Part shown: positions 2,631 through 29,478 of the stretch, in pieces | Position numbering within the stretch: position 1 is the stretch's first letter | Layout: every line of letters begins with the position of its first letter | Program-made: the position numbers and the translations under genes | The notes under the pieces: generated by a model | Seen by the model: only the letters and a program-made list of their open reading frames with translations | Told to the model about the DNA's origin: nothing | Database searches by the model: none | Virus record (IMG/VR): IMGVR_UViG_3300042260_000193 | Coordinates: 1-34,891 of that record | DNA length: 34,891 nt | Source of the DNA: a virus | Reading direction: 5' to 3' (one strand)

Positions 2631-3259
2631 GACTTAAGCATTTCGATTAGCTCGGGATGAGGATATACGTCAGTCTTATCTTTTCTAACAGAGTTGTGTG
2701 TGTATACTCCGGGGTTACCGGCCAATGCTCTTCTTGACACACTCCAAATGTCTTCATTATAGTCCAATGGTATTCCATAAATATCATTCCAATATAGTAA
2801 CAATTCTTTTGTTGATTCAATCTGCTCCTTGGTATATGAGTGCCAAAACTGAAAACCCTTGTATGGAGTATCAAGCTTGATGACATCCTTCTTAGGTATC
2901 TCTATGCCAACGTAGTTTACAAACTTGCCTTTTGATGCCTCTTTTAAGAAGCCCCAATTGCATATCTCTACACCGATTGATAGCTTATCTAGGCTTTGGT
3001 AAGGAACACCGTTAGAATTAAATACACCCTGCTTTAGACCAAGGTGGTATCCCCAATACTTTGAGCTAAATCCCTGAGCAATTAATCCGTCTGTTCCTAT
3101 CGCAACACAGGTTGCTACACGGTCCTTTGTTGATGCCCAATACTTAAATACCTGCTCAGCATTGCCATTTCCTGCAGTGTGGTGTAGGTATATCTGCTTC
3201 TTCTTGGTTTCTTCCTTGAAGTAGTGTGATGCTGCGAAGTCTACCTGCTTAATGTTCAT
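2615..3259 (-). CDS. N-acetylmuramoyl-L-alanine amidase endolysin (Amidase_2/PGRP fold)
   Basis: 214 residues. The pattern fits the zinc amidase_2 family, which cuts between MurNAc and L-Ala in peptidoglycan: 'IYLHHTAG' (Zn ligand His26 or 27), 'GYHLG' (about 70-74), 'SIGVEICNWG' (94-103) and 'YTHNSVRKDKTDVYPHPE' (second His188, then Lys195 and Asp197 where the third ligand is expected). There is no signal peptide, so export would need a holin, which is encoded immediately upstream (4-bp overlap). It is unrelated to the M15 lysin at 26329-26793 although both sit in the same cassette slot. Confidence 0.88.
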   Translation of the reverse strand: MNIKQVDFAASHYFKEETKKKQIYLHHTAGNGNAEQVFKYWASTKDRVATCVAIGTDGLIAQGFSSKYWGYHLGLKQGVFNSNGVPYQSLDKLSIGVEICNWGFLKEASKGKFVNYVGIEIPKKDVIKLDTPYKGFQFWHSYTKEQIESTKELLLYWNDIYGIPLDYNEDIWSVSRRALAGNPGVYTHNSVRKDKTDVYPHPELIEMLKSCATK

Positions 3260-3750
3260 TGCTTTATATTTCTATAGGTGCTTGCTGCGTTTTCGACTGC
3301 TGCACGAATCTTTTTGACTACTGAGAATACAGCCTTTAGCATATTGTTTCCTGTGATGTCAAACCAATTCTCATTGATTGACGATATCTCGATAAGTGAG
3401 AAGATGATAAGTATACCATTGGTAAAGATGGCCTTGTTTAGAACAATCTCATACCCTGCGCTATTTAGAACGCTACTGACAAATGGCGTGAGTAGATAGA
3501 AGTCAAGCGGTAGAAGCGGAAGAGCTACAAATGCGTATCCTGCGAGCTTGAACATATACCCTCTGCGTAACATCTTTGATAGAAACACCTCACGGTAGGC
3601 TCTCTTTTCTCTCTTGGCTATATACCAAAGAGATATGAGCTTTACGATGGTGTCTACGCCAATTGTTATAAATAGACATATGGCAGACAGCTCTACCGGG
3701 GCCCACATTGCTGTGAGTGCTATCAAGAATGTTATCAACTTGCTTTTCAT
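3256..3750 (-). CDS. Putative holin, multi-span membrane protein
   Basis: 164 residues with about three membrane stretches (roughly 5-42, 67-92 and 108-124) and a charged amphipathic C-terminus. The element 'SINENWFDITGNNML' near the end matches 'SINESYFSVTGVNVW' in the shorter protein at 26846-27271, showing common ancestry. Both precede an endolysin and a u-spanin, supporting a holin role. It overlaps the amidase gene and the small basic gene upstream by 4 bp each, so translation is likely coupled. Confidence 0.65.
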   Translation of the reverse strand: MKSKLITFLIALTAMWAPVELSAICLFITIGVDTIVKLISLWYIAKREKRAYREVFLSKMLRRGYMFKLAGYAFVALPLLPLDFYLLTPFVSSVLNSAGYEIVLNKAIFTNGILIIFSLIEISSINENWFDITGNNMLKAVFSVVKKIRAAVENAASTYRNIKQ

Positions 3751-3887: not shown

Positions 3888-5147
3888 TTATACAATCTTC
3901 AAAATTCCACCGTCATTGTAAATGTCACCTGCATTCAACCCCGTAGGTGACGTAGGCAATCCCTCAAACCTTACTCGCCCACTTGTTGAGTGGAAGGCAA
4001 AGTGAGAATATCCTGTTCCTGATACAGCAGGGTTATAATAGAATCCTCTAATTATACCATTATAGGTCCCTGTATTTTCTATAGATGTACTAACCTGTAC
4101 AGCATTATAAGTTGCATTTCCAGATGCGAAAGACATCCTTCCTCCTATAGCTTGAATAGCCATATTACCTGTCGTTGAAGGATTGGCAGCGCCTCCTCCA
4201 CTTATGGTCATTATTGTTCCTGTATTGTACCCAACTTGATTTGTAAAATTATGTTGAGTTCCGTTTATTACATTAGATTGATAGTTAATTTGACCACTAT
4301 TAAAAATTCTTGTAGTAGAGCCATCTAAATTGAATGTTAATCCATTTCCTAGTGTCAAAGCACCACTCACCCTCGCAGTACCTTGAACATCAAATAAGTA
4401 ACCCGCATCTGTTGGGGCAACTGTACCGTTTGAAATAATTACGTTGTCAGTACCATCTTTCATGAAAAAACGATATGGTCTTGTCGAGCTTCCTATAAAA
4501 AATGTATTGTATGAACCATATCTAATTTGTGCATTATATACTCCAATTTCTAACCAACCTCCTCTTGTACTTGTTCCTCCATCAAAATCATTAAATGTAA
4601 TTCTATTTAATCTACCTGATACACTACCTTCTGACATTTGAATATAAGAAGTTCCTGCCGTCCCGGGTCCAAATACTCCAACACCATTAACATGAAATTT
4701 TTGAACAGGCGTACTCGTACCAATCCCCAAACGTCCATTCGTGTTATCCCAAAACAAGTTCCCCGACTCCTGCACAACATTCCCCGTTCCCTCGAATAAC
4801 ACCCGTCCGACTGTACCTGAAGTAATAGCAGTTGTGCCGATTGTTATGCCTGTTGAAATAGTATACGTTCTATCTGCCGATAAGTCTTGTGTTACTCCGT
4901 TTATTGTTAGGGTTCTTGATGTAGGGACTTTGGCGTCTAAAGCGTTTTGCAAGTCCGTTTGTGCGGATAGTGTGCCGCCTATATCTCCCCAGTCAACGTT
5001 GCCTACTGCGGCGTCTATTATTTCTTGACCTGTTATTGACTTGGAAACGTAACCTGTTCCAGTGAACTCGGCTACTTCTATTAGATCGTCTGCGGCTAGG
5101 TTTGAACCTTTGGCGGGTAGTTGGCTAATCTTTATTTTTTGGTTCAT
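3888..5147 (-). CDS. Tail fibre protein as assembled (possible chimera of two phages)
   Basis: 419 residues. The N-terminus (1-120) contains a virion-attachment-like segment 'MNQKIKISQLPAKGSNLA' and 'TNGRLGIGTSTPVQKFHVNG' (about 136-155), the repeat typical of Bacteroidota phage fibre shafts. The C-terminus is glycine- and Ser/Thr-rich beta structure ending 'GLNAGDIYNDGGILKIV'. Residues 192-260 are shared almost exactly with the partial fibre at 34283-34891. Base composition changes near 4740: CpG-rich upstream in the gene, CpG-poor downstream. The box TTTTAATATCGTTATG abuts the ATG. The residues after about 234 probably come from the side branch rather than the main phage. Confidence 0.75.
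   Translation of the reverse strand: MNQKIKISQLPAKGSNLAADDLIEVAEFTGTGYVSKSITGQEIIDAAVGNVDWGDIGGTLSAQTDLQNALDAKVPTSRTLTINGVTQDLSADRTYTISTGITIGTTAITSGTVGRVLFEGTGNVVQESGNLFWDNTNGRLGIGTSTPVQKFHVNGVGVFGPGTAGTSYIQMSEGSVSGRLNRITFNDFDGGTSTRGGWLEIGVYNAQIRYGSYNTFFIGSSTRPYRFFMKDGTDNVIISNGTVAPTDAGYLFDVQGTARVSGALTLGNGLTFNLDGSTTRIFNSGQINYQSNVINGTQHNFTNQVGYNTGTIMTISGGGAANPSTTGNMAIQAIGGRMSFASGNATYNAVQVSTSIENTGTYNGIIRGFYYNPAVSGTGYSHFAFHSTSGRVRFEGLPTSPTGLNAGDIYNDGGILKIV
4369..4574. repeat. 206-bp direct repeat, copy 1 (matches 34686-34891)
   Basis: Identical to 34686-34891 apart from T4447 versus C34764, which changes Asp to Gly in the fibre protein. The 127 bases 4448-4574 are exact and end where the window ends in the other copy. 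Offset between copies is 30,317 bp. Direct, not inverted. Confidence 0.97.
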
Positions 5148-5160: not shown

Positions 5161-5610
5161 TTAGTTACCTTCTTGTTTAAGTGGGACGGCGCAGTCTGTC
5201 CAGTTGTTCACGGCAAAAGTCGCAGTCATTACCCAACCCGCCGCGTAGTCTAGTAAGTCGTTGTTCAATGGGTCAAACGTTGGGGCGTCTACTAAATCGA
5301 AAGCGTAGTTTGTCGAATTGATAAAATACGTATACAAGTCGTAGAGTATTTGCTGGCAGTCGGACAGAATTACGTTAATGTTTTCGCGGTCTTTTTGTAT
5401 TATGTCGAAACAATAAATTTCTAGGACAAAGTCGTTCGTGTTTTCAGTGGCCAACGCTTGCACGGGTACAATAAAAACAATAGGGTACTTTTCGTCCTTT
5501 GTGGCGAAGTTGAACATTTGTTCTTTGAAGTCCGAACCTACCTTTTTAACCTGAACATGGTTGTTGTAAAAGTCCGTTATTTCGTTTATTAGTGCTTGGT
5601 AACTTGTCAT
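5161..5610 (-). CDS. Putative tail completion/terminator protein
   Basis: 149 residues, no membrane segment. It begins with a helix (MTSYQALINEITDFYNNH), followed by mixed alpha/beta sequence with 'YPIVFIVPVQ' (about 42-51) and 'LEIYCFDI' (62-69), the look of tail-terminator or neck proteins of Bacteroidota siphophages. It overlaps the tape-measure stop by 4 bp and precedes the fibre gene. It is a small structural protein by context; the exact role is inferred. Confidence 0.5.
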   Translation of the reverse strand: MTSYQALINEITDFYNNHVQVKKVGSDFKEQMFNFATKDEKYPIVFIVPVQALATENTNDFVLEIYCFDIIQKDRENINVILSDCQQILYDLYTYFINSTNYAFDLVDAPTFDPLNNDLLDYAAGWVMTATFAVNNWTDCAVPLKQEGN

Positions 5611-7634
5611 AATTCCGACCCTTGTTTTATTTTGTTTATTTTGCTTTGCGTGCTTGTTATGTCGCTTTCACTTACGACGGCTTGCACCACTATATTTTGG
5701 TTAGTTGTTACGCTTTTAGGTTGCCCTTGCGTGTTTAGGTCGTTGCCTTGTCCAAACATTTGAACGGACGGAACTAAAGGCGTAACGCTAGTAGAAGACG
5801 AACTAGTAGGCGTAGAACCTCCACCGCTAATTGTACCGCTAGGGTTACTCAATAGTTGTTTAGCTTTTACCATGTTCGTGGTAATTTGCAATATGCCGCT
5901 AGCGAACTGCGCAATACCCGCGGCACCCGCTGAAACTGAGTTAAACGGGTTAGCATTTGAAGCGGCAACTAGGGCGCTTATAGCTTTAGCCGTGTCTATT
6001 CCTATTTGAACTAGGGCCGACGCCTTGTTAATCTTTTCTAGTTTCTTTTGATCGTTGGTAACTAGGGTGGCTAGGTTGCCTAACGCGTTGGCGTAGTCGC
6101 CTATTGTAGATATTTTAGCGTCCCTAATTTGGCGGTCTTGTTCTATTTGCGCTAGTGCTTTGGCTTTTGCGTCTTCGGCTTCTTTGTCCGTTATTGCTTT
6201 AATTTCCGCCGCGCGTTTTTCTTCTAGCGCTTTGGTGTCCATTCCGTACTGCTCGGCTAGCGCAATGAGTTCGAAATACTTTGTTTGTACTTCGTCTATT
6301 TGTCGTTGTGTTTCGGTCATAGTCAACACGCGCACTTGTTCTTCGAAGTCTTCTTGCGCTTGTAGCTGTGCGTTCTGGTTGTCTTTAATTGCTTTAGCTA
6401 TGTCCGCTTGTCGTTTGGCTTCGGCTTCGGCTTGCGTTTTAGCACTTGCGGCTAGTTCCGCTACTCTTTGTTCTTCGTAAAGTTTAGTTAACTTGACCTT
6501 TTCGGCACCCGTTAGGTTTTCGTTCTTCTTGGTGTCTTCGATTAGCCTTCTATACTTTTCCTCTGTAGTTGCTATTTCACGCTTGTTATCGTCTTCTATT
6601 AGGGCTATTTGTATGTCCTTAATAGTACGCTCGGCGTCTAGTCTGTTCTTCGCGTAGGCTTTAGCTTTTTCTAAATTCTTCGCCGCGTTTTCTTTTGCTT
6701 TAGCTTCTTGTTCTGCTTGGTCTGCAATTTCTAGCAAGCGGCGTTCTTTGCGTCCGTCTGCAAGTATTTTCTTTTCGGCTTCTATTTGTTCGCGTAGTTT
6801 CTTACGGCGTTCTAGGTTGTCTTTAGACGCTATCTTTTGTAGGTATGCGTATTCCTTTTGTGCGTTGTTTAGTCGCCCGTCGGCTTCTTTTGCTATGGCT
6901 TTAGACTTCGCTACTTCTAGGTCGGTGGTATCTTTACCCGCCGCCTTTGCTTTGGCTATTTCTATGTCGAATGCGTCGCTTACTTTTTCCGCTCTTTTCT
7001 TTGAACTTTCGGCCGCCTTTTCGTTCGTCTTTTGCATTACTTTAGCGTGTTCTTCGGCCTTGTAATTCGTTAAGCCCATTTCATCGGTAAGCTTTTGAAA
7101 GCCTTTTATAATAGCGTTAATGGGTGCCATTAATAAATTAAACGCTTTTTCTAGTGCGCCTATCTTACCCAAGAAAGCAACGAAGCCAGCTACTAAAGCG
7201 GCAACTATTGCACCAAGTAAAAACATAGGATTAGAAAGTATTTGCGCGCCTAGCTTAACGAAAGCCCCACCAACGTTTTTAACTACGCCCGTAAGTCCTT
7301 TTAAAGCCCCGCTTATTTCCGCTTTACCTACGGACCCTAGCGTTTTGGCAAAGGTTTGCGCCTTTTCACTTGCACCCTCAAAGTCTAGGCTTGCTAGGTC
7401 GGCTTGTATTAACCCGAACGAATTACTAACGGCTTCGAATTTTGATCCCGTGTTAAAGACGCTTACTTGTTCGTTTACGTCTTTTAGTTTGTCTGCTAGT
7501 TCACCCGCCTTTTGCGCGAGTTTAGCCATAACTTCGGGGTCTGTCGCGTCTGCTATTGCGCCCTTAACCGCCTTTAGTTCGGCTTTAATTGCGGCAATGC
7601 CCGTAAGTTTTAAAGGTATTTGTACTTCGTTCAT
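5607..7634 (-). CDS. Tail tape measure protein
   Basis: 675 residues, the usual tape-measure design: a hydrophobic span at about 137-157, long Ala/Lys/Glu coiled coil over about 195-490, and an Ala/Gly-rich hydrophobic region near 530-590 (ASALVQIGIDTAKAISALVA). The family sets tail length and is ejected with DNA; at about 0.15 nm per residue a tail near 100 nm would be expected. It lies between the large 899-residue tail protein and the putative terminator. The gene has its own TAATATTG box before ATG 7634. No other tape measure occurs in the window. Confidence 0.88.
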   Translation of the reverse strand: MNEVQIPLKLTGIAAIKAELKAVKGAIADATDPEVMAKLAQKAGELADKLKDVNEQVSVFNTGSKFEAVSNSFGLIQADLASLDFEGASEKAQTFAKTLGSVGKAEISGALKGLTGVVKNVGGAFVKLGAQILSNPMFLLGAIVAALVAGFVAFLGKIGALEKAFNLLMAPINAIIKGFQKLTDEMGLTNYKAEEHAKVMQKTNEKAAESSKKRAEKVSDAFDIEIAKAKAAGKDTTDLEVAKSKAIAKEADGRLNNAQKEYAYLQKIASKDNLERRKKLREQIEAEKKILADGRKERRLLEIADQAEQEAKAKENAAKNLEKAKAYAKNRLDAERTIKDIQIALIEDDNKREIATTEEKYRRLIEDTKKNENLTGAEKVKLTKLYEEQRVAELAASAKTQAEAEAKRQADIAKAIKDNQNAQLQAQEDFEEQVRVLTMTETQRQIDEVQTKYFELIALAEQYGMDTKALEEKRAAEIKAITDKEAEDAKAKALAQIEQDRQIRDAKISTIGDYANALGNLATLVTNDQKKLEKINKASALVQIGIDTAKAISALVAASNANPFNSVSAGAAGIAQFASGILQITTNMVKAKQLLSNPSGTISGGGSTPTSSSSTSVTPLVPSVQMFGQGNDLNTQGQPKSVTTNQNIVVQAVVSESDITSTQSKINKIKQGSEL

Positions 7635-11841: not shown

Positions 11842-12993
11842 TTAGAACGCAAAGTAGGCGTCGTCGGTAAAGTATTGTTCTTTAATGTAGGTAGTCGCGT
11901 ACCTTACGGCGTCCATAGCGTCGTCGAATAGCTTTACTGGTTCGTCCGTTATAGTGTCCACTACCTTTTTCCACTTGTAATTTGCGTATTCCTTTTCTAG
12001 GTTTTTGTCTGCCATAGCAAACACGCCGAAGGTCTTTATATTATCTATACCCTTTTTTACGACCTTGTTAGCGTTAAGGACATTGTAGCCCGCGTTATTC
12101 ATTTCGGCTATTATTTCGGGGCGTGCATAGTCCGCTATTATTTCGGTTTCCTTTTCGACGTCTAGCGAAGCCATGCGGTCTATTAGGTTGGACGTGGTTA
12201 GGTAGCTTTCGTATATTACGGGTTCTATGAATATGTCCTTTTCGTGCCAGTAGACGCGCATTAAAGCGGTCGGGTGGTTGTAACCAAAGTCCAAGCCGTA
12301 AACGTATTGCGTAAAGCGTGCGGGTCTGTGCGGTAAGAACGTCCAGTTCGAGTATATGTTGGCCTTGCTTATAGCGTGTTCGCCTAGTGCGTAAATTTGG
12401 TATAGTGCTTCGTCCGTTCGTTTAAGGTCCTCAATTTGCCGTTTAATGCTATCGGGCAAAAATGGGTTGTCGCGGTACGTGCTTTTGATTAGTACGCTTT
12501 CGTCTTTTGGTAGTTCGTAAAGCCAACTTGTACTATCTGAAGGGTTATAGTCAAAGATTAGCTTTTGTTCGGTACGCATATTTAACTGCGTGAAGTCGTC
12601 TAGGAATAGTTCGTTAGCCTCATTACACCATGCTACGTGGCGCTTGCGGCCCCTTATTTTCTGTTCGTCGTCAACACTAAAGAACTCAACTATAGATCCA
12701 TTGGGGAACGTGTAAATATGTTCTGACATATTGTGGCTAGACTTGTCGTATATGCCCGCTTCTTTAAGCACTTCTAGAAAGTCGCGCATAGCCGTTGCAC
12801 GTAACGCTGGGAATGTCTTACGAATGATTGACACAACCTTTTGCGGGTTTTGTAAGCAGTAGACCATTATAAGCTGACAAAGCGAATACGTCTTACTTGA
12901 ACGCGAACCCCCTTCGTTAATGATAAAACGCGCCTCATTGTTGTAAAGCGCGTCGTAGTTACGTTCAAAAACTATCGTAGACTTTAACTCCAT
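11842..12993 (-). CDS. terL: Terminase large subunit
   Basis: 383 residues, PBSX/Terminase_3 type. The ATPase shows Walker A GGSRSSKT (28-35) and Walker B HVAWCNEANE (about 119-128). The nuclease shows the expected acidic set: YGLDFGYNHP (Asp235), IIADYARPE (Asp288) and LFDDAMDAVRYA (Asp357/358, Asp361). It packages DNA into the procapsid with the small subunit, whose stop overlaps its start by one base. Its length is slightly short for the family, but all motifs are intact. Confidence 0.95.
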   Translation of the reverse strand: MELKSTIVFERNYDALYNNEARFIINEGGSRSSKTYSLCQLIMVYCLQNPQKVVSIIRKTFPALRATAMRDFLEVLKEAGIYDKSSHNMSEHIYTFPNGSIVEFFSVDDEQKIRGRKRHVAWCNEANELFLDDFTQLNMRTEQKLIFDYNPSDSTSWLYELPKDESVLIKSTYRDNPFLPDSIKRQIEDLKRTDEALYQIYALGEHAISKANIYSNWTFLPHRPARFTQYVYGLDFGYNHPTALMRVYWHEKDIFIEPVIYESYLTTSNLIDRMASLDVEKETEIIADYARPEIIAEMNNAGYNVLNANKVVKKGIDNIKTFGVFAMADKNLEKEYANYKWKKVVDTITDEPVKLFDDAMDAVRYATTYIKEQYFTDDAYFAF

Positions 12994-19975: not shown

Positions 19976-20767
19976 TTAAAAAAGTTTTAATTGTTTAATA
20001 TTCATTTCGCTATTATAAATTCGTTCCGTGTTTGGGTCGATTAGGTCGGCAAATTCTATTTCACAGAACGTGCCGCAGTCTGGCAGTATTGGCGGTTCGT
20101 GTTTTCCCTCGTTTGGTTTAAGGTCGGCCAGAAATTTACCCTTAATGCAACTAGCGCCCGTTTGTATTTCTAAGTCGGCCATTCTTTGGTAGTATTCTGG
20201 AAACTCTTTACGTACTTTATTCCAGTAACCCTTTCCGCCTTTAACGCAGCCGATACAATTGTTGTTGTGAAAGCCTAGTAAATACATTTTAGGTAGTTGT
20301 ATTCCGTTTATTAGTAGCAGTTCGGCGCATTGTTCTTTTGATAGCTGACGCTCAATAAGCGGAAACAACGGCTTTGCTTTTGGGTGTTGTTGTGCAAAAC
20401 GAATAGCGCGGTTTATTTCTTTGCGTGAAAACTCAAAACCAAAAATTTGCCCCTCGTAGTCTATTTCTTTTTCGATTTTATAGCGCACGTTCTTTTTTAA
20501 CTCTAGCGTACACCTAGCCCCAGACGGGCCGTTAATATACCGCGTCTTTTCTATTACGTCGAATTGGTCTACGTATTTTTCGCTACGTACCTTGTTTATT
20601 TTTTTACCTAGCCAGAGTTCGCAGTCGTCTAAAAAACGTTCATTGTCTGGGTGGGCGCTATCTATTACCATGTAGTAAAGTTCTACGTTGTCTTTTCCGT
20701 ATTGCTCTATTGCTATTTTACAAGCTACTGCGCTTGTTACGCCACAACTAAACCATGCTATTTTCAT
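19976..20767 (-). CDS. PAPS-reductase-like PP-loop protein with cysteine cluster
   Basis: 263 residues. The N-terminus has a PP-loop variant 'SCGVTSAVA' (7-15) of the PAPS reductase/adenine nucleotide alpha hydrolase superfamily. Cysteines at 86, 171, 174, 207, 231 and 235 ('NCIGCVKGG', 'DCGTFCEIEF') could hold an iron-sulfur cluster as in DndC-type and related enzymes. Phages often carry such proteins; a role in sulfur-linked nucleic acid modification or defence evasion has been suggested for relatives but is not established. It lies among replication genes, not metabolic ones. Confidence 0.75.
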   Translation of the reverse strand: MKIAWFSCGVTSAVACKIAIEQYGKDNVELYYMVIDSAHPDNERFLDDCELWLGKKINKVRSEKYVDQFDVIEKTRYINGPSGARCTLELKKNVRYKIEKEIDYEGQIFGFEFSRKEINRAIRFAQQHPKAKPLFPLIERQLSKEQCAELLLINGIQLPKMYLLGFHNNNCIGCVKGGKGYWNKVRKEFPEYYQRMADLEIQTGASCIKGKFLADLKPNEGKHEPPILPDCGTFCEIEFADLIDPNTERIYNSEMNIKQLKLF

Positions 20768-21061: not shown

Positions 21062-22000
21062 TTAAAAAGGTGTTTCGTTTGCGAGGCGTCTAAGCTTTTC
21101 GCTGGTTGTTAGTATTTCGTTTTCTATTTGCTTTTGTACTTCTTTTGGTCTGTATGGGGCTAAAGGGTCTATGCCGTTTATTTGAAAGCCTAGCCCGCTA
21201 TTAAATTCGCACTTAACTGGTTGCTCTATTTCCGTATGTTTGCCGCCAGTTTCTTGGTCTTTAACTTTTTCTACTCCTATCAAAGTCTTAAATTTAAGTT
21301 CGGGGTGTTTAATTAGTCGGTGAATTACTAGCATGTCGTCGCAGCGGTTCAAAAATGCTTTTCCGCCTTCTATGTGATCCTTTAAGGGTGGCTTTAAATG
21401 GCCTTTGAGTTCGCCGTCTTGGTAAATGTTACCAGTTCGCCCGCTTTCGGTGTTTGGGTGCGTGTTTATATAGATAGTTATTCCCGTTTGGTTGCAAAAT
21501 TGGCGAGCCTTATTCATAAATTCGTAGTTCCCTTCGTACCCCATTTGCCTATCTAAGCCCGTGAAGGGGTCTATAAGCCCAACGTTTGCCCCGCTTTCCT
21601 TAAAAAGGTCTAGCACTTCTTCGGGTTTGTACAAATTCGAGTTGTCAACGAATGTAAAGTATTGTTCTAGGTAGGCTAGGTCGCCCGCTATTTGCGAATG
21701 GGTTAATTTACTAAAGTGTTTGCCCCTATACATTTGGATTAGGTCGCGCATAATTTGGCCCTTTTGGTTTTCACCCGACCAAATACAAAACGTTAGCCCG
21801 TGTTTTAGTGCCAAAGCTAAAAAATACCAATTGATCCAGTACGTTTTTCCGACGTTGTCATGGCCTAGTATTATAGTTAGTTGTTTAGGTTTGAACCTTA
21901 GGTAGTCGTCTAGGTAGCAGTCTAAGCCTAGGCCTTTTTTTATTTTGCCGTCCCTTACGTCTAGTAAGTATTGCAGCGAGTCGCCTTGTTTTAGTAGCAT
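21062..22000 (-). CDS. DnaB/RecA-type replicative ATPase (helicase)
   Basis: 312 residues. A RecA-fold ATPase is shown by Walker A 'GHDNVGKT' (46-53), Walker B 'VGLIDP' (140-145) and the DnaB-like context 'LTIILGHDNVGKTYWINWYF'. It lacks the N-terminal domain of full DnaB, being one-domain like several phage replicative or RepA-type helicases. It is next to the replication initiator gene (2-bp gap), so it probably loads at the phage origin. Confidence 0.8.
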   Translation of the reverse strand: MLLKQGDSLQYLLDVRDGKIKKGLGLDCYLDDYLRFKPKQLTIILGHDNVGKTYWINWYFLALALKHGLTFCIWSGENQKGQIMRDLIQMYRGKHFSKLTHSQIAGDLAYLEQYFTFVDNSNLYKPEEVLDLFKESGANVGLIDPFTGLDRQMGYEGNYEFMNKARQFCNQTGITIYINTHPNTESGRTGNIYQDGELKGHLKPPLKDHIEGGKAFLNRCDDMLVIHRLIKHPELKFKTLIGVEKVKDQETGGKHTEIEQPVKCEFNSGLGFQINGIDPLAPYRPKEVQKQIENEILTTSEKLRRLANETPF

Positions 22001-22002
22001 GG

Positions 22003-22698
22003 TTAGTTTTTTAGGTGTGCTAGTAATGCGTCGCTTTCTGTTTTTATGGTTAGCCCGCTATACTTGTCTATTGTTTCGGCTCTACTAAAAAATTCGGGTG
22101 TGCAATACTGGTAGTTGTTGTCTTTATGGTATTTGCTAGCTGCTGCGTTCGTTATTGCGTCGTTTATTTGTTCTTTGGTGTAACCCTCTTTTAGCCTAGC
22201 TTGAAAAGAACGTTTTGTTTTTTCGTTAATTACTTCAAACCTACGGCCAAAAGTTCTATTTATGAAGCCTAGCAACGCTAGGTAGTCTATATTCTTTTCA
22301 TTCTTATTATTCTTTTCATTCTTGTTTGTTGTTAATTGTTTGTTGCTCGTTTGTTGCTCGTTTGTTAGTGGCTTGTTAGTAGTTTCGTTTTCTTGTTGGT
22401 AACATTCGTATTTACAGATAGTTACAATAGTAAATTGGCTTGTTGATTTTACTTCAATTTCGCTTGTCTTTTCTAGGCGCTTTAAGTTGGTTCTAATTAC
22501 TTGAATTGATAGCCCCGTGGCGTTTGAAATGTTACCCAAAGACGAAATAAATTGACCGCGTTTTACTTCTATACCTTGCCATTTTCCGTCTTTATGGTTT
22601 GCCTTTATAAGCATGTACAAAAACAAATGCACGGCTTCGGACTTATTAAACCATTCCCAGTCTAAAAATTTCCTATGTAATTTTATCCAGCCGCTCAT
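22003..22698 (-). CDS. Replication initiator (wHTH + Phg_2220_C-type domain)
   Basis: 231 residues. N-terminal winged helix ('WIKLHRKFLDWEWFNKSEAV', about 4-23, and 'ATGLSIQVIRTNLKRLEK', about 60-77), a low-complexity Asn/Lys/Thr linker (about 105-135), and a C-terminal domain of the Phg_2220_C type ('LLGFINRTFGRRFEVI', 'YCTPEFFSRAETIDKY'). Proteins of this plan bind origin repeats and recruit the helicase. The linker DNA contains iteron-like repeats (22291-22367). The downstream gene is the helicase. Confidence 0.8.
   Translation of the reverse strand: MSGWIKLHRKFLDWEWFNKSEAVHLFLYMLIKANHKDGKWQGIEVKRGQFISSLGNISNATGLSIQVIRTNLKRLEKTSEIEVKSTSQFTIVTICKYECYQQENETTNKPLTNEQQTSNKQLTTNKNEKNNKNEKNIDYLALLGFINRTFGRRFEVINEKTKRSFQARLKEGYTKEQINDAITNAAASKYHKDNNYQYCTPEFFSRAETIDKYSGLTIKTESDALLAHLKN
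22291..22367. repeat. Iteron-like repeats inside the initiator gene (candidate origin)
   Basis: Two copies of attcttttcattctt (22291-22305, 22309-22323; period 18) and four starts of gtttgtt(g/a) (22324, 22338, 22349, 22360), two of them as an 11-bp tandem gtttgttgctc. The 11-bp period is not a multiple of 3 and is about one helical turn, which favours DNA-level binding over protein repetition. Phage origins often lie within the initiator gene. Confidence 0.45.
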
Positions 22699-22907
22699 TA
22701 GAATACTACTTTGAAGTCGTAATACAATGTAAAGCGGGCGTTTTTATCAATCTTAGCTTGTGCAAAAGTAAATACGCCTATACCTACTTGAATTTCACCC
22801 ATGTATTTTTTGTCGTCTTGTACTATTTTTTCAAATTCCGCTAAATCTTTAAACGACATTCCAGCTTCAAAACATTCTTTCAAATTGTAAATAATAACTC
22901 TTTTCAT
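22698..22907 (-). CDS. Small protein preceding the initiator, unknown function
   Basis: 69 residues beginning 'MKRVIIYNLKECFEAGMSFK', with helix then strands ('MGEIQVGIGVFTFAQAKI'). It overlaps the initiator start by one base (TAATG), so both are translated together. Immediately upstream is the structured leader/terminator (22926-23012). Not recognised. Confidence 0.6.
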   Translation of the reverse strand: MKRVIIYNLKECFEAGMSFKDLAEFEKIVQDDKKYMGEIQVGIGVFTFAQAKIDKNARFTLYYDFKVVF

Positions 22908-22925: not shown

Positions 22926-23012
22926 AAAAAAACCCTCGCAAATCCGTAGGCTCTCACATCTACTTCATTACAAGGGTCAATAATACCTTTAGGTTCTATG
23001 TTGTGAGAGCGA
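22926..23012 (-). ncRNA. Structured leader or small RNA with terminator-like end
   Basis: Minus strand, starting just after a TATATTTG promoter element. Arm A (23010-23002) is a perfect 9-bp complement of arm A' (22958-22950). Arm B (22978-22968) pairs with B' (22941-22931) over 11 positions counting G-U, followed by seven T (22932-22926). Order A-B-A'-B' means the two stems interleave: a pseudoknot, or alternative folds with and without a terminator. It precedes the initiator operon, so it could attenuate replication genes, or be a free small RNA of about 85 nt. Confidence 0.5.
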
Positions 23013-23020
23013 ACCGCTTA

Positions 23021-23028
23021 CAAATATA
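23021..23028 (-). promoter_or_regulatory. Promoter -7 element TATATTTG before the structured leader
   Basis: Full match to TAnnTTTG on the minus strand, 5-8 bp after the DnaA-like gene stop. A transcript starting about 6-8 nt downstream would begin at the first arm of the structured leader. Confidence 0.5.
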
Positions 23029-23032
23029 ACGT

Positions 23033-23461
23033 TTAACTTTCAATAAAGTTGCATTGCTCTAAAACTTTTTCGTAAACACCTAGCTTAACACGGCGTCGAA
23101 TACGTTTAAAGTCGCGAATAGTCCTAGCCTCTATAATGTCCGCTTTTAAGTCCGCTTTTCTTGCGTTCTTTTGTTCTGGGAATATCAATACGCTACCCTC
23201 TAGTTGCTTCTTTAGTTGGAATGTTTCGTGTTTATAGTCTTCGTCGTTGTACCCGGTCAAGTTTTCGTGTGTTCGTAGGCCGTGTATAATTGTAGCGTGG
23301 TGCTTACCGAATATTTCGCCAATTTGCGAAAGGCTAAAGCCGCTTGTTCTAAGTTCGTGGTATAGGTACGCGCGTTTGTAAATCAGTCCGCGATCCCTAG
23401 CCTTGTTTCTTAGGTCGTAGGCTTCGACAAGTTCGTGGATTATTGCTATTTTGTTTTTCAT
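23033..23461 (-). CDS. DnaA domain IV-like DNA-binding protein
   Basis: 142 residues. 'YKRAYLYHELRTSGFSLSQI' and 'GEIFGKHHATIIHGLRTHEN' (about 28-67) closely follow the C-terminal DNA-binding domain of DnaA, which reads DnaA boxes through a helix-turn-helix and a conserved 'HxTxxH'-type segment. There is no AAA+ domain: this is the binding domain alone. It may direct replication to the phage origin or compete with host DnaA. It lies next to the initiator operon. Confidence 0.75.
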   Translation of the reverse strand: MKNKIAIIHELVEAYDLRNKARDRGLIYKRAYLYHELRTSGFSLSQIGEIFGKHHATIIHGLRTHENLTGYNDEDYKHETFQLKKQLEGSVLIFPEQKNARKADLKADIIEARTIRDFKRIRRRVKLGVYEKVLEQCNFIES

Positions 23462-27271: not shown

Positions 27272-27828
27272 TAAAAAACCATTATTGAGTTATTGTACCC
27301 GTTGTCGTTGTAACGTTGGCCACAACGTCCAAAACACGTACCTATGCAATCGCACGCGTCAATCTGTGGGCGTAAGTCTGTGTCGCGGTTTTCCTTACTT
27401 GTAAAAAGCGGGAAAAGGTTTTTATTGGCTAGCAACCATTTCGAAAGTCGGGCTTCAAAGAAACTCGCTTTTTGTGCGTAGTGTTCCATAGAAAAGGCTA
27501 CTTCAGCACGGCTTACACTACTAGAAAAGTCCCCAAACTGCGTTTGCAAACCTTTGTTTTTAAGTTGGTACGAAAGGCCAAAAACGGCGTCTTCTGCCGA
27601 ACGCCACGCTACTACGGGTTGAATAAACGCAACTAGTTCTTGTTCGTCGTTGGTTAACGTTTGGTTGTTGTACTTTGCTAGAAGGTCGTTATAAAACACG
27701 GAACCCAATATAGGTTGAACGCGTAAGTCTGATTGCGTTTTAATGTATGGCGTTACGTCTGTTACGTCTACATTTGCCGTAATAGGCGTGTTCGTCTTTA
27801 AGTAGTTTTCTGTTATAAAGTAAATCAT
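27271..27828 (-). CDS. Head-tail adaptor (connector) protein
   Basis: 185 residues. The opening 'FITENYLKTNTPITANVDVT' and 'LRVQPILGSVFYNDLLAKYN' (about 35-54) are typical of connector proteins next to the portal in Bacteroidota phages. The C-terminus has a cysteine group 'ACDCIGTCFGRCG' (about 158-170) that may bind metal. It overlaps the portal stop by 4 bp. Confidence 0.7.
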   Translation of the reverse strand: MIYFITENYLKTNTPITANVDVTDVTPYIKTQSDLRVQPILGSVFYNDLLAKYNNQTLTNDEQELVAFIQPVVAWRSAEDAVFGLSYQLKNKGLQTQFGDFSSSVSRAEVAFSMEHYAQKASFFEARLSKWLLANKNLFPLFTSKENRDTDLRPQIDACDCIGTCFGRCGQRYNDNGYNNSIMVF

Positions 27829-29126
27829 AGCGCGGGGGTTTGTACGGGTATTACGTCGCCACCTTCAACGGGTGGTAAGCTTGCAAGCGCTCTAATTTCG
27901 TTCGGTGTCATGGTGTCAAGTACTTTAGTAGCTACCAACGGCGACATAGCGTTAAGGGCGTCTTGGGTTTTACTTGCGTCGCCTTCTACTTCTACGATAG
28001 TTTCATTAATAATCTGGAAATTCTTAATAGAAAACGTAGCAGACAAACGCGAAATGTTAATTAACTCTTGAAAAATTTCCGTTACTTGTTCGCGCAAAGG
28101 AATTACAACGTTCTTTTCAAAAATAATGTAGGCTTGTTTAATGTCCGAACCATTACCCAAAGAACCCGTAGTGCGAACGCCTAGTAAGATAGGGTCGATA
28201 GTATGGGCAAAGCAAATTTGTTCGGTATTTAACCCGCTAGCTTCTTGAAATAGTTTGTCGTTTTGGTTTGTTGGTATGCTTTCGATTTTCGGTAATTGGT
28301 CTTGACTATTTGCAAAGAAGGCCACACCTTTACCCGCGTTATGCGCACCTTTCATGCGGTCGATAGTGTCGCGTAGTACTTTCTTTTCTTCTTCGCTTTG
28401 TGGGCGTTTAGGAAAAAGCATAGCAAAAGACGGGAAAATAGAGTTTTGAATGTTCGACTTTGCAAAGTATGAAAGTTCGCCAGACAAGAAAGCGAAGTTT
28501 AAAGCGCTAGTGTATTGCGGTAATGGGTAATAATCTTGACCAATGCTAGGTAATTCGTAGGCGTAAAGCTGGCACTTGTCCGTATTTAGTGGGTGGTATG
28601 GTTTAACGGGTTCTACGTCTATTCTACTACTCCAGTCGTCGCACAAATAGTAACAATCTTTTTTGTTGTTAATACGTACCTTTTCGGGGCTTACGTTTTC
28701 AATGCTTTTTACTTTTCCTTTGTCGTCAAAGTACAATTTAAAGTACACGCGGTGGTGCATTACTAGTTGTTTTGTAACGGCTTTAAGCGCTTTAGATAGG
28801 CGCATTTTCTTTTCCCAAGTATACAACGCTAGTTTTTCGTCGGGCGTTAACTTGTCCGTCTTTAATTCGTACCCCGCGCCTATTGTAGCGTTAACTTTAA
28901 AGTCCACAACCGCCCCATGTAAGGGCGACATATAGTAAAGTTGGTTTAACGTTTCGGGGAAAAGGTTGTCTTGTCCAAAAGGAATATAGCCCGCCACTTG
29001 GTAGCGTCCGTTAACGTAAGGTAGCGTTAAGTTACCCCCGCCAATTTTACCGAACGGCGTTGAAAAGCTTTGATAGCCTTCTATTACCTCTGGTTTTTGT
29101 TGTCTAAATCTATCAAAAATACCCAT
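27825..29126 (-). CDS. Portal protein
   Basis: 433 residues from 'MGIFDRFRQQKPEVIEG', a start typical of HK97-type portals; 29135 (MTSMGIF) is also possible. The sequence is that of a portal: 'MSPLHGAVVDFKVNATIGAG', 'NVSPEKVRI', 'ELSYFAKSNIQNSIFPSFAM' and a long helix near the C-terminus. It forms the dodecameric ring through which DNA enters. The upstream gene stop overlaps or abuts its start. All flanking genes are head genes. Confidence 0.88.
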   Translation of the reverse strand: MGIFDRFRQQKPEVIEGYQSFSTPFGKIGGGNLTLPYVNGRYQVAGYIPFGQDNLFPETLNQLYYMSPLHGAVVDFKVNATIGAGYELKTDKLTPDEKLALYTWEKKMRLSKALKAVTKQLVMHHRVYFKLYFDDKGKVKSIENVSPEKVRINNKKDCYYLCDDWSSRIDVEPVKPYHPLNTDKCQLYAYELPSIGQDYYPLPQYTSALNFAFLSGELSYFAKSNIQNSIFPSFAMLFPKRPQSEEEKKVLRDTIDRMKGAHNAGKGVAFFANSQDQLPKIESIPTNQNDKLFQEASGLNTEQICFAHTIDPILLGVRTTGSLGNGSDIKQAYIIFEKNVVIPLREQVTEIFQELINISRLSATFSIKNFQIINETIVEVEGDASKTQDALNAMSPLVATKVLDTMTPNEIRALASLPPVEGGDVIPVQTPAL

Positions 29127-29127
29127 A

Positions 29128-29478
29128 CTAGTCATATATCGAAGACACGGCAACGCCAGCAACTACCATGCGGCCTTCTTCTATTAAGTTTAATTCGTCT
29201 GTGTTCGTGTTTTCGTCTACTATTATTTCTACGAGGCTTTCGTAAACGCTATATTTATATTGACCTTTTGTTAGTGTGACGTCTACGCCTTCTTCTAAAG
29301 TGAAAAGGTTGTAACGTTGTGGCCAATTACTAGTGTCTACACCCGCCCAAAAGATAGGCTCTACGGCGGTGTTATATTCGCCCTCAAACACGAACAAATA
29401 AAAGGGGTTTACTAACGTCGTTACCTCGCTTAATGTCAGCGCGAACGTGTTTATTTCCCCCTTGTCTATGTAAATCAT
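29128..29478 (-). CDS. Small virion-associated protein, unknown function
   Basis: 116 residues from ATG 29478. The longer frame to 29517 adds a non-conserved stretch, while ATG 29478 carries the box TTTAATATTGTTATG, so it is preferred. Beta-rich ('NPFYLFVFEGEYNTA', 'LTKGQYKYSVYE'). I recognise the pattern from Bacteroidota phages near portal and tail genes, but no function is known. Confidence 0.7.
   Translation of the reverse strand: MIYIDKGEINTFALTLSEVTTLVNPFYLFVFEGEYNTAVEPIFWAGVDTSNWPQRYNLFTLEEGVDVTLTKGQYKYSVYESLVEIIVDENTNTDELNLIEEGRMVVAGVAVSSIYD

Follow-up and report, generated by a model that had tools for sequence, protein, structure and literature searches.

A kissing-loop RNA family before the replication genes of flavobacterial phages

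Flavobacterial phages, some of them cultured, carry a family of structured RNAs that is absent from Rfam 15 and stands at the control point of DNA replication. We characterized it in virus record IMGVR_UViG_3300042260_000193 (positions 1 to 34,891; the whole of this stretch is referred to as the window), where the element lies on the minus strand directly before a replication operon (Table 1). The initial annotation had described interleaved stems, A-B-A'-B'. The two hairpins carry 9-nt tips that match each other without a mismatch, which makes these stems a kissing-loop pseudoknot within one molecule, formed on an intrinsic terminator; since the element consists of two hairpins with kissing loops, both stems are able to coexist. 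We favor, with a probability of roughly 55%, the reading that it is a regulatory leader or short RNA that restrains transcriptional read-through into the replication operon and in some cases its translation. The window itself derives from a tailed dsDNA phage, because it encodes a terminase large subunit, a portal, and a tape-measure protein.

Table 1. The RNA element and its surroundings in the window (P, stems; K, kissing segments)
Feature	Position	Strand	Sequence	Remark
Complete element, first half	22926-23028 (both halves)	-	TATATTTG-TAAGC-GGTTC-[GCTCTCACA]-ACATA-GAACC-TAAAGGTATTATT-GACCCTTGTAA-TGAA-GTAG-A-	kissing 9-mer bracketed
Complete element, second half		-	-[TGTGAGAGC]-CTAC-GGAT-TTGCGAGGGTT-TTTTT	kissing 9-mer bracketed
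Promoter -7 box	23021..23028	-	TATATTTG	Bacteroidota TAnnTTTG; predicted transcription start ~23016
P1, 5' strand	23011..23015	-	GGTTC	partner 22996-22992
K1, loop 1	23002..23010	-	GCTCTCACA	A of the initial annotation
P1, 3' strand	22992..22996	-	GAACC
Unpaired linker	22979..22990	-	AAAGGTATTATT	most conserved single-stranded part (alignment A1)
P2, 5' strand (terminator stem)	22968..22978	-	GACCCTTGTAA	B of the initial annotation
Internal loop, 5' side	22964..22967	-	TGAA	opposite GGAT (22945-22942); columns conserved in A1
P3, 5' strand	22960..22963	-	GTAG
K2, loop 2 (terminator hairpin tip)	22950..22958	-	TGTGAGAGC	A' of the initial annotation
P3, 3' strand	22946..22949	-	CTAC
P2, 3' strand	22931..22941	-	TTGCGAGGGTT	B' of the initial annotation
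Seven-T run	22926..22932	-		intrinsic terminator, predicted RNA 3' end; kept in relatives
DnaA C-terminal HTH-like protein	23033..23461	-		before the RNA; PF08299, E 4e-7, slightly below gathering score
69-aa ORF	22698..22907	-		first gene behind the RNA, starts 18 nt past the T-run
DnaD-like replication initiator/helicase loader	22003..22698	-		phrog_2514, E 1.6e-30
Replicative helicase-like ATPase	21062..22000	-		phrog_18375 DNA primase/helicase, E 9e-22
Phosphoadenosine phosphosulfate (PAPS) reductase-like gene	19976-20767			phrog_424, E 5e-49; closely follows the replication genes
Terminase large subunit	11842-12993
Portal protein	27825-29162
Tape-measure protein	5607-7634

Direct reading of the window bore out the primary observation: the 9-bp match of A with A' is perfect, the 11 positions of B and B' form 11 pairs including G-U, and the arrangement A-B-A'-B' is preceded by a promoter box and ends in seven T. 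The original inventory of stems was right about these two helices and overlooked two others, P1, which encloses A, and P3, which encloses A'. Folded without constraints, the 96-nt core had a minimum-energy structure of exactly P1, P2, and P3 (-24.1 kcal/mol), with K1 and K2 unpaired in their loops, and the kiss, treated as a free duplex, averaged about -12 kcal/mol across the family. Tandem G.A pairs could form between the TGAA and GGAT sides of the internal loop, a non-canonical pairing that is inferred. A descriptor combining TAnnTTTG, kissing segments 7 nt or longer, a terminator stem, and a T-run gave a single match in the window and 119 matches across related loci totaling 3.2 Mb, versus 4 in the identical DNA reversed. 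The element is far above chance expectation, and the observation is confirmed.

A lack of compensatory changes in homologues was to have refuted the proposal; such changes were found. With the initiator (P0002) and helicase (P0004) as queries, we retrieved 160 viral loci, of which about 120 contained the element by BLASTN, and 92 distinct stretches were aligned. In alignment A1 (45 distinct sequences), 96.5% of 1257 pair cells formed standard pairs and 24 of the 28 pairs changed on both sides, whereas slid controls, with partners shifted by 1 to 3 columns, were only 30 to 51% paired. The best-kept helix was the kiss K1/K2 (8 pairs tested, 99.2% paired, 6 of 8 changed on both sides), followed by P3 (96.7% paired; both-side changes in 4 of 4 pairs), P2 (96.6%; 9 of 11), and P1 (91.9%; 5 of 5). 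These counts were not corrected for phylogeny; the slid controls retain the same relatedness and yet scored far lower. Because of this covariation we regard the reality of the element as settled, and the suggested pseudoknot is upheld by the A/A' helix, which covaries across relatives. Per-sequence folds placed both K1 and K2 wholly in loops in just 32 of 70 members of subtype I, to which the element in the window belongs; in the nested fold they also lay in hairpin loops for several members of a second subtype (subtype II, below) and for L251. The latter (positions 137-242, 35 bits) is a distant member with a perfect 8-bp kiss (CTCATCAC/GTGATGAG) and an unrelated first gene (MEKQRMLLLPKSFIESY...) behind it.

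A covariance model, R1, comprised the nested stems only, without the kissing pairs. It matched about 115 of the 160 loci plus at least about 80 further loci retrieved with DNA patterns, with a single match in nearly every locus. Applied to named phages not used in building it, R1 found the element in Cellulophaga phage phi18:3 (NC_021794; 46.1 bits) and Tenacibaculum phage JQ (MT002873; 42.1 bits). The loops of phi18:3 (CTTCTGAC/GTCAGAAG) form a perfect 8-bp kiss (8/8) and those of JQ (GCATCCTAC/GTAGGATGC) a perfect 9-bp kiss (9/9). This is a blind test, as R1 could not have demanded the kisses. The phi18:3 element, whose T-run is near positions 3074-3081 of the record, precedes a 69-aa ORF and an annotated DnaD-like helicase loader. 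The architecture is shared, with other sequences, by Cellulophaga phages phi13:2, phi19:3, and phi46:3 (loops CTCTCACAA/TTGTGAGAG) and by Flavobacterium phage vB_FspS_morran9-1 (loops GTGAGAAG/CTTCTCAC), with kisses of 8 to 9 bp; these four were assigned by the descriptor because their R1 scores were weak or absent. In morran9-1 (L464, 2876-3019), the RNA is overlapped by gp42, an annotated 47-aa "hypothetical protein," which is probably not a real gene.

The cultured carriers infect Flavobacteriaceae, and most other relatives are metagenomic contigs without a known host. In all, the element was present in more than 130 distinct phage loci, and it recurs in many viruses of flavobacteria. When the window region was compared with named phages by BLASTN, there were zero matches; the cultured relatives were reached through a weak BLASTN match to a diverged member, a protein match, and then the covariance model. 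Among bacterial genome contigs, a pattern scan returned 31 stretches, 0 of which were confirmed. The sole match in 199 genomes of the genus around one Flavobacterium genome, L450, was rejected as a false positive, as it overlaps a coding gene and has no kiss. A search of 395 genomes of the order recovered only remote relatives of P0004. No searched bacterial chromosome carries the element, within limited sensitivity, and its restriction to phages holds only as far as was searched.

The box before P1 meets the pattern of a Bacteroidota sigma-A promoter (TAnnTTTG, -12 to -5) and stands at the same exact place in 76 of 77 distinct relatives; promoter activity is inferred. TAnnTTTG boxes lie at -12 to -5 of mapped starts in F. 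psychrophilum (PMC9723704), from which we place the start one base before P1, so that P1 would be the extreme 5' end and operon transcripts would have to cross the terminator. From this box to the T-run is about 91 nt, in keeping with the short RNA or attenuator of about 85 nt that had been envisaged; there are no transcript data, and the choice between attenuator and small RNA (sRNA) is unresolved. The criterion for an intrinsic terminator was also met, with a stable P2 stem ending in GGGTTTTTTT and a T-run directly behind it (terminator hairpin mean, -18.0 kcal/mol in 70 members); termination itself is predicted. Strong termination is not universal, because in the L042 group the T-run is broken and weaker. 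The distance from T-run to ATG was 16 to 23 nt in 72 of 77 members, and this gap held no promoter box in 71 of 77. At the other 6 loci, all subtype I, a TAnnTTTG-like string (e.g., TAAATTTGCAAAATGG) stands just before the next gene, where a leaderless transcript could start.

Under the favored reading, transcription would begin at the TAnnTTTG box, and the first bases would fold into P1. The nascent RNA would then form P2 and P3, the K2 tip kissing the P1 tip, K1, by 8 to 9 bp. The T-run behind P2 would end most transcripts, and the product would be a stable RNA about 91 nt long. Because only about 18 nt separate it from the next gene and no promoter box intervenes (in the window and most relatives), the replication operon would be expressed only from read-through transcripts, and since it would be made only in this way, the RNA would limit the supply of initiator and helicase. 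The structure, conservation, and place of the element and the complementarity of K1, K2, and K3 (a third copy, below) on which this scheme is built are observed; promoter and terminator function, the limitation of the operon, and the direction of control are inferences. No conserved overlapping alternative helix that would act as an anti-terminator was found in subtype I. An AAGG/CCTT anti-terminator was considered and rejected; by eye, it is not kept in members with other P2 sequences.

The main rival is an independent, trans-acting phage sRNA, a possibility that remains alive although we think it rather unlikely; a ligand sensor and an origin or primer element, discussed below, are less likely. 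The ~91-nt RNA would pair with phage or host RNAs, or contact a protein, elsewhere, the linker AAAGGWATTATT being the contact site and the operon position a matter of genome economy. A promoter box of its own in nearly all members, together with the terminator, suits such an RNA, as do the linker, which is the most conserved unpaired part, and the contigs that hold two RNAs with different kissing sequences (L254 and L073). The first downstream gene varies widely, which speaks against a regulatory leader and also fits an independent sRNA. Also counting against a regulatory leader are the lack of K3 in the window and in nearly all of subtype I, the broken T-run of the L042 group, the promoter-like string before the next gene in 6 of 77 loci, the lack of a conserved anti-terminator helix in subtype I, and the per-sequence folds, in which both kissing segments are fully looped out in just 32 of 70 subtype I members. 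However, the kissing segments have no second match of at least 8 nt in the window and a single chance match in subtype I loci, upstream transcription into the operon must cross the terminator in most members, and subtype II links loop 2 to the adjacent start codon.

Placement before replication genes, as proposed initially, recurs in more than 100 loci. At least 131 distinct loci were found, with the usual order being DnaA_C-like HTH gene, RNA, zero or one small variable gene, DnaD-like initiator, and helicase; the DnaA_C-like family is immediately upstream of the RNA in at least about 100 loci. The slot directly behind the RNA is the one that varies between phages; in the window its occupant, the 69-aa ORF, had no Pfam or PHROG match. 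The RNA still stands in front where the replication genes differ, as with an 800-aa BT4734-like/PriCT primase or a DUF3987 protein. In relatives, PAPS reductase-like genes are sometimes inserted near the RNA. In nearly all loci it is flanked by the DnaA-like gene on one side and the initiator operon on the other, as would also be expected of a replication-origin element, in which the terminated RNA serves as a primer or opens origin DNA, like oop or plasmid pre-primers. We consider this highly improbable, given two RNAs in one contig, one of them before a homing-endonuclease-like gene (L073), and given the K3 copy at the start codon in subtype II, which points to translation.

Loci without an R1 match mostly carried another RNA at the equivalent site, with the same promoter, which we term subtype II. 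Its P1 has 3 to 5 bp and a loop of 6 to 7 nt, its linker usually includes AUUAUU, and its terminator hairpin has an AGUA/GAA internal loop, which we take to be the loop E/sarcin-ricin motif pattern, and a 6- to 7-nt loop that kisses loop 1. Whichever gene came next, a copy of the loop 1 sequence, K3, lay at its start codon in 24 of the 27 cases listed. All 10 distinct K1/K2/K3 combinations having K3 paired at 6/6 positions between K3 and K2, compared with a mean of 4.72 in shuffled combinations, 0 of 5000 of which reached the observed value; the shuffle was not corrected for relatedness, and five different sequences had matched copies. In L365/L366 and L121/L393, K2 has a better pairing partner in K3 than in K1. 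This is direct evidence, at the level of complementarity only and without binding data, that loop 2 of subtype II has a partner at the translation start. Since loop 2 can also pair with K3 there, the regulatory leader of subtype II would choose between its own loop 1, leaving the start free, and K3, covering it. Because the window has no K3, this translational part is not seen in it; within subtype I, a third copy was found only in the CCTTCGAC group (CTAAAACTTCGACAATG), where it may be due to chance.

Both subtypes may share a contig. L254 bears RNAs at 1587-1682 and about 3950-4040, with different kissing sequences, flanking inserted genes that include one for a PAPS reductase-like protein. 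L073 has a subtype I RNA at 3720 and a second RNA, of subtype II, from 5752 onward (kiss GTTACGG/CCGTAAC), directly before a gene starting MKKEIWKDV that resembles the NUMOD4/HNH homing endonuclease family F7.

Kissing sequences turned over within constant surroundings. Among locus pairs with at least 93% identical 122-nt upstream flanks, the kissing sequences differed in 20 of 29, and some of the RNA cores were just 57 to 72% alike; phi18:3 and phi13:2 are 97% identical up to the promoter and have different RNAs beyond it. Such co-changing loops suggest, as far as comparison of genomes can, selection for pairing codes or recombination between them. An extension of this idea is a self-competing, three-segment switch with phage-specific codes, in which loop 2 would pair with loop 1 or with the operon start site. 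Codes would be exchanged between close relatives by diversifying selection, like diverging plasmid incompatibility groups, and the RNA of a resident phage could act on a superinfecting phage with the same code. Support comes from the covariation of K1, K2, and K3 and from the 20 of 29 flank-matched pairs that differ in the kiss, but the idea remains speculative, and we would not expect it to hold. If the codes matter, RNA pairing would be linked to competition between phages.

The initial annotation recognized no known riboswitch class, and the window had 0 matches to Rfam 15 at gathering thresholds; at E values of up to 10, only mir-3015 and OmrA-B appeared, at chance level. The guanidine-IV family was not matched either, although its presence in that library is unconfirmed. 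A literature search of incomplete coverage found no paper describing the RNA. In the guanidine-IV (mepA) riboswitch, which acts in a 5' leader, guanidine binding brings about a kiss between loops that impedes the intrinsic terminator coupled to it (PMC11611296). The phage RNA also couples a kissing loop with a terminator, a similarity in principle only: its kiss uses the terminator hairpin tip, kiss and terminator can coexist, there is no Rfam match, and replication genes lie downstream. By analogy, the RNA could be a leader that senses a ligand or protein, with the kissing complex as the sensor and its stabilization altering read-through; the conserved unpaired ACANNATA, the linker, and the internal-loop nucleotides could form a binding site. 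We judge this unlikely, as no ligand pocket was recognized, the kissing and stem sequences vary freely, the genes downstream are for replication rather than metabolites, and the RNA, unmatched in Rfam, is known only from phages as far as was searched.

Plasmid systems of the IncI-alpha type rely on a leader peptide together with an antisense RNA transcribed from the opposite strand. In IncI-alpha, IncB, and IncL/M plasmids, a leader pseudoknot is reported to control the supply of the initiator RepZ or RepA (repZ/repA; Asano & Mizobuchi 1998, cited in PMC10724649). The phage RNA likewise places a pseudoknot in the leader of an operon for a replication initiator. It differs in that it has a terminator and that a promoter of its own stands immediately at its 5' end, and no antisense RNA or leader peptide was seen for it, in a comparison that did not extend to conserved promoters on the opposite strand. 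Among the short, structured RNAs that phages encode near replication or immunity genes, and that act by base pairing and termination, are P4 CI RNA, P1 C4 RNA, and lambda OOP RNA. The present RNA has no Rfam match; C4-type RNAs pair with sites elsewhere in their own operon, and OOP is antisense to a neighboring gene, whereas the present RNA runs in the direction of the operon. In RNAI/RNAII of ColE1 and in TAR/TAR*, fully complementary hairpin loops of 6 to 9 nt kiss between two molecules; here both loops lie in one short RNA, and pairing between two copies is not excluded. Support for the pairing is strong enough that mutants of phi18:3 or similar phages can be planned immediately, with effects that are predictable. 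Membership in any of these classes has not been shown, but the RNA resembles, in the way it works, the known leaders based on kissing loops or pseudoknots, and it is an uncomplicated case from nature of a kissing loop locking the tip of a terminator.
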